46,031 bases of DNA from Algicola sp. (lineage in GTDB: Bacteria; Bacteroidota; Bacteroidia; Flavobacteriales; Flavobacteriaceae), in the NCBI GenBank assembly GCA_018222875.1, contig JAAEZL010000007.1:6037-52067 (forward strand), written 5' to 3'. Under the pieces are notes generated by a model that did not search any database, was not told where the DNA came from, and saw only the letters and a list, made by a program, of their open reading frames with translations. The position numbers and the translations under genes were made by a program. Each line of letters starts with the position of its first letter. Position 1 is the stretch's first letter. This document shows positions 2 to 4,808 of this stretch, piece after piece.

Positions 2-715
2 TTTATTGTTGGACGTAATGCAGAATTAACCTATGTGAAATTAAAAGCGAGTACTGCAAATAATTCATTTGGTACTGACATTTATTTCAATAATAACGCT
101 AGTCTTGGATTTGATCTGGGATATGATGCAACTCTTTGGGGTGGAACAACTCCTGAATTTGCTTTATATTCTCACATAGCTCAAGATAATACAGGTGAGG
201 CTATGGCAATACAAGCTATTAATACAGCTGATCTTTCAGGTGTTGTTATTCCATTAGGAGTTCATGCAAATCAAGGTGAGCAATTAACATTTAGTATTGA
301 TGATATGACATTACCAGCTTCTGTTAATGTATATCTTGAAGATGTTGTTGCTAACACGTTAACGTTATTAAATGATTCTAACTATGTAATTACTCCTGGA
401 ACAGAATTATCTGGAACTGGACGTTTCTACCTTAGAACTTCTGAAGATGCTTTATCAACAATAGACAACGATCTTGACTTGTTAGATATCTTTACTTTAA
501 GAGCTTCGGATGAACTTATAGTTAGTGGACAATTATTAAATAATAATACTAAACTTAATCTATATGATATTCAAGGTAGATTAGTTCTGAGTACAACACT
601 TGATAGCGCATTATTACAAAACCGTATTGATGTATCAAGTATTAACTCTGGTGTTTATATTGTAACTGTACAAAATAATAGCCAAGAGAAAACTAAGAAA
701 GTTATAATAGACTAA
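2..715 (+). CDS. C-terminal part of a secreted protein with T9SS type A sorting domain (5' end outside window)
   Basis: Frame is open from base 2 to TAA at 713-715; C-terminus NLYDIQGRLVLSTTLDSALLQNRIDVSSINSGVYIVTVQNNSQEKTKKVIID is a classic Por secretion/T9SS type A CTD. Confidence 0.85.
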   Translation, partial: FIVGRNAELTYVKLKASTANNSFGTDIYFNNNASLGFDLGYDATLWGGTTPEFALYSHIAQDNTGEAMAIQAINTADLSGVVIPLGVHANQGEQLTFSIDDMTLPASVNVYLEDVVANTLTLLNDSNYVITPGTELSGTGRFYLRTSEDALSTIDNDLDLLDIFTLRASDELIVSGQLLNNNTKLNLYDIQGRLVLSTTLDSALLQNRIDVSSINSGVYIVTVQNNSQEKTKKVIID

Positions 716-791
716 TTTTTAAAAATTAAAGGTCAAAAATTAATAACATTAAAATAATTTTATTATTTTTGGCCTTTATCATAACAACAAT

Positions 792-953
792 ATGAAAAAA
801 ATTAATTCGCAAAATCAAATCACTCGTAAGGAGGCCATAAAAAAAATGAGCAAATATGCTGCTTTAACAGCTATTGGTACGTTCATTATTTTAAATCCTA
901 AGCAAGCACAAGCTTCATCACCACCTGATCCAGGAGGAAACCCTTTCGATTAA
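792..953 (+). CDS. small 53-aa peptide with Tat/Sec-like leader (MKKINSQNQITRKEAIKKMSKYAALTAIGTFIILNPKQAQASSPPDPGGNPFD)
   Basis: ATG at 792, TAA at 951-953, hydrophobic segment followed by AQA-type cleavage site; lies 17 nt upstream of the HPrK-like ORF on the same strand. Absent from the supplied ORF track. Confidence 0.75.
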   Translation: MKKINSQNQITRKEAIKKMSKYAALTAIGTFIILNPKQAQASSPPDPGGNPFD

Positions 954-969
954 ATCTATATTTTTTGAT

Positions 970-2118
970 TTGAAAACAAATCTGGCTCCAAAGTTAATTC
1001 ATGATATTAATGATGATACTGTTTTACTTTGGTTTGATAAATCAAACAAATATGTAGTCACATCAAAAATTAATAGAGAACTTATAGAACTATACATGAA
1101 TCCTGACGAAAGTCGGGATTCATTTGTTGTAAACACCTCAAATAATTATAAAATTGATAATAAAGAGGCTGCTCAACTTTTTGATGATTTAACTGTGTTT
1201 TTGACAGATGTAAATGTCAAGAACAACAATCAGAATATCATCAACAAGACTTCAATTGAAGCCCCTTCTTCTTATATTGAAGAATCTTATAATTTCAGTG
1301 ATAAAATTATATGCATAAGATATGAATCCGATGTTATTAAGAGCTTAATTCATCCGCAAATTGCACATCATTCTGAAAAAAACAAGTCACAACACCATGT
1401 GTTATTTAATGTTTTTAAAATAAAAGATGATTTACATCTTTTTAAAAATGGAGTATCTGTAGGGAGCTTTAAAACACAAGCTTTCCATTTTCTTCAAGGT
1501 AAATTTGCTTTAGAACTTACTAATGCTATACATGATAAACACATTGATGACTGGATAGCCACATTTCATGCATCAACCATTTCAAACGGAAAAGATGCCA
1601 TCATGATTATTGGAGATTCTGGAAATGGTAAAAGCACACTATCTGTATTATTAATGGCTCATGGATTTGATATTCTTTGTGATGACTTCACTCCTCTTTA
1701 TGCGCACAACTTAGAGTTGTTTCGCTATCCGGCTGCAACGTCTATTAAAAAAGGTGCTTTTAAAGCATTAAAGCCTTATTTGAACGAAATCGATGCTTTG
1801 AAAACTTATACCAATGGTCCAAAAAAAGTAAATATTAAATACGTTCCTCCAAGTTTAAGTTATGAAAGTCAAGCTGCAAGTTTCCCTTGCACTAAAATTG
1901 TATATGTAAAATATGATTCTACAAAAAAAGACAATTTAAAACAGGTTTCTCCAGATAAAGTTTTAGAGACCTTAATACCTGATTCATGGGTATCTCCCAA
2001 AGAATCTCATGCATTACAGTTTATCAATTGGTTTAAAAACGTCGATTGTTATCAATTAAATTATAGCAATAACGACTTTGCTATTTCAAAATTTAAAGAT
2101 CTATTTGAAGAATCATAA
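970..2118 (+). CDS. HPr kinase/phosphorylase-like protein with possible PqqD-like N-terminal domain
   Basis: Walker A GDSGNGKSTLSVLL and downstream DILCDDFTPL match HPrK-like P-loop kinases; TTG start assumed, no in-frame ATG near the start. Confidence 0.75.
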   Translation: MKTNLAPKLIHDINDDTVLLWFDKSNKYVVTSKINRELIELYMNPDESRDSFVVNTSNNYKIDNKEAAQLFDDLTVFLTDVNVKNNNQNIINKTSIEAPSSYIEESYNFSDKIICIRYESDVIKSLIHPQIAHHSEKNKSQHHVLFNVFKIKDDLHLFKNGVSVGSFKTQAFHFLQGKFALELTNAIHDKHIDDWIATFHASTISNGKDAIMIIGDSGNGKSTLSVLLMAHGFDILCDDFTPLYAHNLELFRYPAATSIKKGAFKALKPYLNEIDALKTYTNGPKKVNIKYVPPSLSYESQAASFPCTKIVYVKYDSTKKDNLKQVSPDKVLETLIPDSWVSPKESHALQFINWFKNVDCYQLNYSNNDFAISKFKDLFEES

Positions 2119-2154
2119 ATTATTTACTTACATTTAAGTACTTAATTCAAACCA

Positions 2155-3201
2155 TTGTCTTCACAAAAAAATTCATACAAATTTACACTTCAAGTAATTG
2201 CTGATATATTGAGTTTTGAAAACTCTGTAGATGCTTTAAAACAAAAGATGACATCCCACTCTATTGACTGGGAACAATTTGTTTTTATTGCCAGTGATTA
2301 TTTAGTTTTAACGACTTGTTATTGTAGATTAAAGCAAAAGAATTTAGTTGATTTTATTCCTGAAGATTTAGCATTATATTTAGAAGAGATTACGACAATT
2401 AACAGAAATCGAAATCTGACTTTATTAAAGGAAATTGAATGTATAGCAACCCTCTTTAACGACCACAAAATAAATTATGTGTTTTTGAAAGGTGCTGCGT
2501 TTTTGGTAAAAGAACACTTTGAAGATTTTGGTGAACGCATGTTAGGAGATATTGATATCTTAGTTGATGAATCTCAAATTGAAACCAGCTACCAAATTCT
2601 CTTAAACAATAATTATAAAGGTACAGCTCAAGGAATTAGCGCTAAATACTTTGATCACAAACACTTACCGAGGTTGCAATCTGATTCTAAATTAGCAGCA
2701 GTTGAAATTCATAAAAAATTGGTGATAAAATCTTATAACGATGTATTACATGTAAAAGGTATACTGAAGACTAAGGAAGCTGTGCAAGATATTTACGTTC
2801 CATCAAATGAACATTTGTTATTTCATTCTATATTAAACTTTCAAGCGAACGATTCAGGTTATGTATACAGTAGAATTAGTTTCAAATCTATCTATGATTT
2901 GCTTATTTTAAATCAAAAATACAACTACAATTTTGATGACAGATTCAAACCTTCTTATTTCAAAAACTATTTCTCGATAGCTAAAATTTTCTTTTCAGAT
3001 TTTAATACATTTAAATCTAATATCTTTATTAACAGACTCTTTTTATTAAAATTAAAATATACCTGGTTAAGAAAAACTATTGACTATTTTATAGAAAACA
3101 TAATATTTTTAAAGGCTATATTCACAACAAGAATATGGTTTTTTATAAGTAGTAAAAGTTACAGAAAAGACATTATTAAAGCGTATAAGAGGGCAATTTA
3201 G
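2155..3201 (+). CDS. nucleotidyltransferase family protein (NTP_transf_5-like)
   Basis: Motif FLKGAAFL...GERMLGDIDILVDE typical of this nucleotidyltransferase family; TTG start, in-frame TAA just upstream (2143-2145). Confidence 0.75.
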   Translation: MSSQKNSYKFTLQVIADILSFENSVDALKQKMTSHSIDWEQFVFIASDYLVLTTCYCRLKQKNLVDFIPEDLALYLEEITTINRNRNLTLLKEIECIATLFNDHKINYVFLKGAAFLVKEHFEDFGERMLGDIDILVDESQIETSYQILLNNNYKGTAQGISAKYFDHKHLPRLQSDSKLAAVEIHKKLVIKSYNDVLHVKGILKTKEAVQDIYVPSNEHLLFHSILNFQANDSGYVYSRISFKSIYDLLILNQKYNYNFDDRFKPSYFKNYFSIAKIFFSDFNTFKSNIFINRLFLLKLKYTWLRKTIDYFIENIIFLKAIFTTRIWFFISSKSYRKDIIKAYKRAI

Positions 3202-3312: not shown

Positions 3313-3915
3313 ATGAGAAATTTAGTTCTATTATTAATATTAGTATCGTTATTTACTTTTGATAGTCACTCACAAACGACATCAAACACCGAATATGATA
3401 CTACATCTGAGAGCGACTTTATAAATGCACCATGGAAACTTAGTGTTGGTGTTAATGCCGTTGGAAGCTTAGGAACCAGACAACCTTTTGCTCGTTTGGA
3501 TGAATTTCAGTTTAAAAATCCGTTTGCTTTGGCAATTGAACATAAGTGGTCAAAATATTTTGCAATTGAACAAGATTTATCTATCAACGGTTACGAGGTT
3601 AATAGTGAAATCGATGGAGGTATCTTAAAAGAAGATTATACATATATATCTACTAATACTTACATTAAATATTACTTCTCTGATGTCCTGTTTACTGCTG
3701 ATTGGTTAGACCTTTACGCTGGTGCTGGATTTGGTATTTTTTCTGTTAACGAACTTAATTCTTCAGGTAACTTAGCTTTTGGTGGTACAGTATGGGTTTC
3801 AGATAACATTGGAATACGACTTCAAGGTGTTGCAAAATTTGCTGTTAATGCAAAAGACAGACAATTTGACAACAACCACTTTCAATACATGCTACAAGCC
3901 GTTTTTAAACTTTAA
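3313..3915 (+). CDS. outer-membrane beta-barrel protein
   Basis: Signal peptide MRNLVLLLILVSLFTFDSHSQ, alternating beta-barrel pattern and terminal aromatic-rich strand FQYMLQAVFKL. Confidence 0.6.
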   Translation: MRNLVLLLILVSLFTFDSHSQTTSNTEYDTTSESDFINAPWKLSVGVNAVGSLGTRQPFARLDEFQFKNPFALAIEHKWSKYFAIEQDLSINGYEVNSEIDGGILKEDYTYISTNTYIKYYFSDVLFTADWLDLYAGAGFGIFSVNELNSSGNLAFGGTVWVSDNIGIRLQGVAKFAVNAKDRQFDNNHFQYMLQAVFKL

Positions 3916-3923
3916 GCAACGTC

Positions 3924-4808
3924 TTAATATCCTGAAAAATTGAAATTCAGCATTCCTTTCACTTTCATATAAATCTCAGGAAATTGGGATTTAAATTCTT
4001 GTGGTGTTTCAATAAACGTTTCAATAATAACGGCTAAAAACTCAAATTGATTAGTATAAGCATAATCTCTTAAGTATTTAGAACTTATCAGCTTGTTTTT
4101 TAAGGCAATATTCTGATCTAATGCATCTGTTAACTCAATATAGGAGTCTATAAAAATTGCAGCACTTGTACTTCGTCTTCTGGCACTTAAGTAGTAGAAA
4201 TGAATAGCATGTATAAACTCATGTACTGCTAAATTGATATTATCATTGTGTACCTTATAGCCATGTAAAATATCTTTCCATGAGAATACCAGAGCCTTAT
4301 AGCCTAAGTTAAACTCTCCTTTGTGATAAGCCTTATTTGTTCGTGAATAAAATTCAGTGGGATAAAAGATAATCCGTTCAACGGTTCCTATTCTATAATC
4401 TCTTAATCCGAATGTAAGTTTCGTTTGCGTAGCAACAATAATAATCTTCATCTCATCTGTAACGTCAATATCTTTACCAATAAACTCTTTATCTTTCAAA
4501 AGTTTAGATACTCGATGTTCAAAATGATTTTTTTGTCTATGTGATAACCTATCTTAGAATCTAAAATTCTCCTTTAAGTAGCGATTATATTCAGGCTTTA
4601 ATTTTTTTTTGTAAATATAGATATGATTGTAAAATAACTGTTTCCTGAAATACTCAACATAAGCCATCTCAAAGAAATAAAATAGTCTGTTTAGTATTAA
4701 AAGAACAGTACCTAAGGTAAGAACACTGGCTAAAAATAAAACTACCCAACGAAAAATTGTTGGGTCTTCCGGATACTTTTGAAGAATGAATATTGAGGCA
4801 TTTAGCAT
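3924..4808 (-). pseudogene. MtfA-like zinc-dependent peptidase interrupted by one in-frame TAA
   Basis: ORFs 4554..4808 and 3924..4499 share one frame (885 nt). The intervening codons read ENFRF*DRLSHRQKNHFEHRVSKLLKDKEFIGKDIDV; HEFIH zinc motif in the downstream part. Confidence 0.8.

Follow-up and report, generated by a model that had tools for sequence, protein, structure and literature searches.

The window, that is, the whole 46,031-nt stretch of DNA that was analysed, opens with four co-directional genes in the order T9SS surface protein, small peptide (P), kinase (K), and nucleotidyltransferase (N), all on the + strand. An earlier sequence-only reading had proposed a T9SS protein, a 53-aa peptide, an HPrK-like protein, and an NTase here, and all four were confirmed at the places it gave; its 17-nt gap between peptide and kinase was slightly off, since K starts 16 nt after the stop codon of P. 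The features of the region are as follows.

2..715, + strand: 3' end of the gene for the T9SS surface protein (PF18962 Por_Secre_tail, 45.7 bits; cut-off, 27)
368..586, + strand: variant pre-tail segment of that protein, with GTGRFYLR and no PNP (class-model match at C164:6404-6622)
727..778, + strand: hairpin between the T9SS gene and the P gene, AT-rich and strong (-17.8 kcal/mol, z -5.4)
792..953, + strand: precursor-like peptide P, 53 aa, conserved in 41/400 family genomes and under purifying selection
792..914, + strand: leader of P, aa 1-41, ITRKEAIKKMSKYAALTAIGTFIILNPKQAQA, a conserved block in alignment A1 with an AxA site at its end
918..920, + strand: codon of Ser43, the proposed phosphorylation site, invariant in 31/31 A1 peptides
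970..2118, + strand: kinase K, an RRE-like N-terminal domain fused to an HprK-like kinase (TTG start; TIGR04352, E 4e-16)
970..1215, + strand: predicted RRE/PqqD-like domain of K, aa 1-82, beta3-alpha3 (AlphaFold2 pLDDT 76; Foldseek)
1561..2103, + strand: HprK-like catalytic domain of K (TIGR04352 match, aa 198-378)
2155..3201, + strand: nucleotidyltransferase N (PF14907 NTP_transf_5, 116.5 bits; cut-off, 31.2; TTG start)
3313..3915, + strand: 200-aa outer-membrane beta-barrel-like protein (weak OMP_b-brl match)

On the full contig, the T9SS protein has 2178 aa with fn3 repeats and a sorting tail (ORF beginning at C164:215), and its gene starts about 5.8 kb upstream of the window, with a short run of undetermined bases interrupting it just before the window. 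It contains the TIGR04183/PF18962 type A sorting domain (44.7 bits; cut-off, 23), and a large T9SS-type homologue of it is present in 33 of 42 K-locus neighbourhoods. Among named organisms, Psychroserpens jangbogonensis and P. mesophilus are the closest relatives. The hairpin at 727..778 may be an attenuator or a terminator, an inference from sequence alone, with its conservation not examined. The beta-barrel-like gene comes next after N in 20/42 neighbourhoods and could be an accessory gene of the cassette. Further downstream, a Peptidase_M90-like gene (3924..4808, - strand) is read as two ORFs (191 and 84 aa), and in most relatives its cluster is a single ORF (about 274-307 aa); the split might be due to a frameshift, a stop, or faulty assembly. 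Genes resembling sugar-nucleotide epimerases and dehydrogenases (clusters c9 and c10) lie near the cassette at L041, L042, L045, L047, and L050. Both K (970..972) and N (2155..2157) have apparent TTG starts, and many K homologues have a TTG at the same place, 12-22 nt past the peptide stop.

The P gene is genuine, and purifying selection on it is strong. Among about 30 kinase loci searched by tblastn, most have the small ORF, at 54-96% identity, just upstream of a homologous kinase, and the peptide at these loci is often better conserved than the kinase or the NTase. Among six related genomes, pN/pS of P is 0.04-0.23, and its last 12 codons show synonymous changes and zero amino-acid changes. 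Because it recurs near homologous kinases and has a low pN/pS, the small ORF is far more than a chance reading frame. The sequence-only reading would have been refuted by the lack of a conserved small ORF or of purifying selection in 792..953; both were examined, and both came out for the gene.

The alignment of 31 peptides (A1) contains a near-fixed block, ITRKEAIKKMGKYAALTAxGTFxILNPKKAQA, followed by a tail that varies across genera in length and sequence and frequently takes the form S-x-P..PG..(F/W). Residues R12, A15, T26, A27, L34, P36, and S43 are invariant. The conserved Ser is position 43 of 53, and P does not end in Ser. P satisfies one criterion for a RiPP, namely, that the precursor is short and divides into a conserved leader and a core distinct from it. 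Neither P nor the peptides of two Sinorhizobium loci match any Pfam or NCBIfam model above cut-off. The aligned Flavobacteriaceae peptides have no twin arginine, with R followed by K, N, or T and never by a second R, and a Tat route for P is thus unsupported. One genome with K (G153, locus L063) has a truncated P that breaks off ahead of the Ser.

P and K also occur in the same genomes. In a sample of 400 genomes of the family, K was found in 37, P in 41, and both in 36 (Fisher p of about 1e-44), with weak, unrelated HprK matches in G143 and G248 left out of the statistics. The sole genome with K and without P (G049) has a contig that starts inside K. Five genomes have P without K; P is damaged in three of them, by a Ser-to-Tyr change and the lack of a start codon (G285), by truncation (G297), and by a frameshift (G317), and it is intact in G137 and G277, whose genome completeness is 84% and 82%, respectively. 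Such decay of P where K is absent strongly suggests that P and K function together. In a 396-genome sample of the phylum, P and full-length K are found in the same five genomes, all of one family; other HprK matches in the phylum (E 1e-14 to 1e-5) cover the P-loop stretch only and were not counted as K. The genome to which the window belongs has one K, four P genes, and a single PF14907 gene, which is N.

The match of K to TIGR04352 remains below threshold (58.9 bits; cut-off, 200). Its catalytic half aligns with a Methylobacterium PqqD-HprK fusion at an hhalign probability of 99.2% (E 7.6e-20). The HKDD motif (His-Lys-Asp-Asp), which is known from lasso-peptide kinases (PMC9266682), is conserved, with H200 and K221 in 41/41 and D238 and D239 in 40/40 aligned sequences. 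For the N-terminal domain (aa 1-82), the leading PDB matches in Foldseek are TbiB1 with bound leader (probability 1.00, TM 0.58-0.68), and further matches are another lasso B1 with leader, PqqD, and two RRE-containing enzymes, namely, TigE and a thioether-forming enzyme of a sactipeptide (5why). The Foldseek E-values for this domain are only 0.03-1, the hhalign comparison with PqqD-type domains was not significant, and a profile search against PDB sequences gave chance matches only. For full-length K, AlphaFold2 run on five close sequences yielded only a low-quality model (pLDDT 56), whose Foldseek search was not significant. Because the profile comparison with PqqD was not significant, the RRE assignment rests on structure alone, and we regard the N terminus of K as likely to be an RRE-like domain, a good but not final call that depends on a predicted model and structure comparison.

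In the window, as at most loci, the gene directly behind K is a PF14907 gene, and residues K112-G113, G131-D132-x-D134, and E184 of N are conserved in 34-35 of 35 homologues.

The association of P with T9SS genes extends beyond the K loci. A T9SS type A tail gene lies directly ahead of P in 46 of 55 cases, loci distant from K included; only P genes preceded by 600 nt or more of readable DNA were counted, and 45 pairings were found by regular expression and one (L118) by eye. Tail remnants are present upstream of P at L109 and L121, beyond the 46/55, and no T9SS gene precedes P at L108, L115, and L117. Since the window's own genome has about 73 T9SS tails in 3.7 Mb, the chance of such adjacency is a few per cent. 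T9SS-P pairs are also duplicated as units, with two pairs at each of the single K loci L065 and L066; the order at L065 is T9SS-P-T9SS-P-K-N. G322 has six P genes and one K, and at least five of the six stand behind a T9SS-tail gene. Several P genes in one neighbourhood, mostly as T9SS-peptide pairs, were seen at L040, L065, L066, L107, L111, and L114.

By sequence, the P-linked T9SS proteins form a distinct tail class. The PNP motif of canonical type A tails is absent from all 41 P-linked tails inspected, and most P-linked tails have G-x-GRF-(F/Y)-L ahead of the tail (GTGRFFL-type). In the window's own genome, where tails were sampled by region and one locus was not read, six further tails of the same kind lack PNP, ten of ten canonical tails read have it, and two more lack it but are of other types. 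A 72-position model of the variant segment gave matches of at least 56 bits in 33/400 genomes, 30 of which have K (Fisher 4e-35) and 30 of which have P (Fisher 1e-32). Variant-type tails without P or K are found in G067 (80% complete) and G355, and seven genomes with K and P have no strong match to the tail class. Variant tails outnumber P genes, with ten versus four in the window's own genome and ten versus one in G159, which argues that P serves a tail class and not a single partner. A one-to-one complex of P with a T9SS protein is excluded, because most of the variant-tail proteins come without their own P.

Relatives of the K-N pair were found by tblastn on plasmids of Sinorhizobium, Ensifer, Leisingera, and Vibrio, and a Methylobacterium plasmid match has a PqqD-HprK fusion with an NTase close by. 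In Sphingomonas, the annotated HPr-rel-A set consists of PqqD, HprK_rel_A, and an NTase. The rhizobial, Leisingera, and Methylobacterium kinases are accompanied by a small leader peptide that does have a twin arginine, e.g., DRREFLKNCGRFAVVTPPAVTMLLSTSLTSNAIAKSGG, and the protein with a Tat signal at the Sphingomonas and Vibrio loci is larger. P and the peptides beside alphaproteobacterial kinase/NTase pairs align at an hhalign probability of 92% (E 6.4e-7) with the Ser aligned, and their leaders are homologous by sequence. No T9SS gene was found near the alphaproteobacterial pairs in the neighbourhoods read. The Leisingera plasmid cassette (L221:3203-4564), with an RR-type leader, an HprK-like kinase, and an NTase, adjoins a giant cadherin-like protein and a polysaccharide export gene.

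The cassette is related to the NCBIfam HPr-rel-A system (TIGR04352 kinase A, TIGR04353 PqqD chaperone, and an NTase) but lies outside its models. Both have an HprK-like kinase next to a nucleotidyltransferase, their kinase domains are homologous, and the loci of the relatives hold an exported Tat-type protein or peptide. In contrast to HPr-rel-A, K is far under the TIGR04352 cut-off and has a fused domain predicted to be RRE-like and no separate PqqD, the leader of P has no twin arginine, and the partner proteins here are of the T9SS. No PqqD (PF05402) match was found in the window's own genome, and TIGR04353 was not part of this genome-wide search. The cassette also resembles the paeninodin (PadeK) and pseudomycoidin (PsmK/PsmN) systems in its HprK-like kinase with HKDD, its NTase, and its predicted B1/RRE fold. 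The kinases of these two systems act on a Ser of the precursor, with the nucleotidyltransferase acting afterwards; the C-terminal Ser of pseudomycoidin is phosphorylated by PsmK, and the one or two hexoses on it depend on PsmN (PMC9266682). Unlike the lasso systems, the cassette has no B2 or C protein, its Ser is near the start of the core and not C-terminal, and it is linked to the T9SS. No Pfam match for a B2 protease or a C asparagine synthetase-like cyclase was found among window genes up to 4.5 kb, no recurrent B2 or C neighbour was seen in 42 neighbourhoods, as judged from cluster representatives, and a lasso locus is rejected for this lack of B2 and C. A phage or defence origin is unsupported, with PHROGs, PADLOC, and phage searches all negative. 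Within the T9SS, one parallel is type B cargo, which is served by dedicated PorP/SprF shuttles (PMC12618676), so that in both cases a gene beside the cargo gene serves that cargo class; however, type B systems have type B tails and an outer-membrane shuttle, whereas a type A-like tail and a modified peptide are proposed here.

We interpret P-K-N as a RiPP-like modification cassette serving the PNP-less T9SS subclass, at a probability of about 0.6. The sequence-only reading had suggested a non-lasso modified-peptide system, possibly tied to the adjacent T9SS protein, and everything tested is in keeping with this, namely, the P/K co-occurrence, the predicted RRE, the HKDD residues, and the T9SS link at 46/55 P genes. 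It did not notice that K begins with an RRE-like domain, that one Ser of P is invariant, that T9SS-peptide pairs exist elsewhere, or that the T9SS tail is a variant one, and it had called the modification function an inference, which it still is. The basis of our interpretation, established by sequence and structure prediction, is conservation, selection, co-occurrence, gene order and pairing, the RRE-like fold, the catalytic residues, the homologous leaders, and the tail class. Leader binding by K, phosphorylation of Ser43, the action of N, export, cleavage, and a role at the surface are all inferred, and no product or chemistry has been observed. In the proposed mechanism, the leader (aa 1-41) would dock on the RRE domain of K, and the HprK-like domain would phosphorylate Ser43. 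N may then act on the phosphoserine by adding a nucleotidyl or hexose group, by analogy with the similarly named PsmK/PsmN, although the membership of PsmN in PF14907 is unestablished. Modified P would leave the cytoplasm and would probably be cut at or near the AxA site, which would leave a short Ser/Pro/Gly core whose second residue is the modified Ser. This core is predicted to act with the PNP-less GTGRFFL-type T9SS proteins, most likely in attachment or maturation.

The rival that survives best, and which remains possible, is that P is a free secreted RiPP (a signal or an antimicrobial) modified by K and N, with the T9SS protein as a co-regulated neighbour or a carrier. The leader/core layout, the RRE-kinase, and the NTase do resemble tailored lasso-peptide loci, and the alphaproteobacterial relatives have the peptide without a T9SS gene in the neighbourhoods read. 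However, no recurrent dedicated transporter, protease, or immunity gene was seen in 42 neighbourhoods, as judged from gene clusters, the core barely varies among related species, and P stands behind T9SS genes at scattered K-free loci and co-occurs with the T9SS tail class. There is less to recommend a second rival, in which K and N modify the T9SS protein (e.g., its variant tail) and P is a mere adaptor or activator. The co-occurrence of T9SS-P pairs and the tail class with K would fit it, but the invariant Ser of P lies outside the leader, the first domain of K looks suited to leader binding, and the alphaproteobacterial K-N pairs have a peptide and no T9SS gene nearby. A third, in which P carries a generic signal peptide like any other small exported protein and its neighbourhood is coincidental, can be set aside almost entirely, since the leader of P resembles a Sec/Tat-type signal with an AxA site but is conserved residue by residue throughout, T9SS pairing is found at 46/55 loci with about 73 tails in the whole 3.7-Mb genome, and the near-perfect co-occurrence with K, even when unlinked, already contradicts it statistically.

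A bolder form of the P-K-N cassette reading, which we consider unlikely, is that P acts as a linker of ribosomal origin for T9SS surface proteins. T9SS type A cargo of P. gingivalis and T. forsythia is amide-bonded to 2-N-seryl or 2-N-glycyl sugars (PMC7468200), and cargo of Prevotella intermedia has an alaninamide linker (PMC11969387). In the linker reading, Ser43 would be phosphorylated and glycosylated, and a sortase such as PorU would join the freed N-terminal amine of the core to the cut C terminus of variant-tail cargo. Chemically, a Ser peptide that is phosphoglycosylated and has a free amine would resemble the aminoacyl sugars as an acceptor, a hypothesis without direct evidence. The likeness, a T9SS cargo class together with an amino-acid/sugar conjugate with a free amine, is only proposed; there are also differences, in that P. 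gingivalis and T. forsythia make their linkers through the Wbp/Vim pathway and not from a ribosomal peptide, and in that the cargo here is PNP-less. If true, P would stand as the gene-encoded equivalent of the seryl-, glycyl-, and alanyl-sugar linkers of oral Bacteroidota.

Whichever role P has, the cassette is real, RiPP-like, tied to a T9SS cargo class, and, as far as searched, previously undescribed: no paper on this system, and none on "HPr-rel-A" or "PF14907", was found in the open-access literature searched. The P-K-N cassette connects RiPP-type peptide tailoring with type IX secretion, two fields that are not known to meet, and for the RRE-HprK kinases and PF14907 enzymes of two phyla it predicts a substrate, namely, a leader peptide with a single defined Ser. 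The anchoring linkers in the literature examined are those of oral species, and a T9SS cargo class that is definable by its tail offers an entry point to surface-protein anchoring in marine Flavobacteriaceae.
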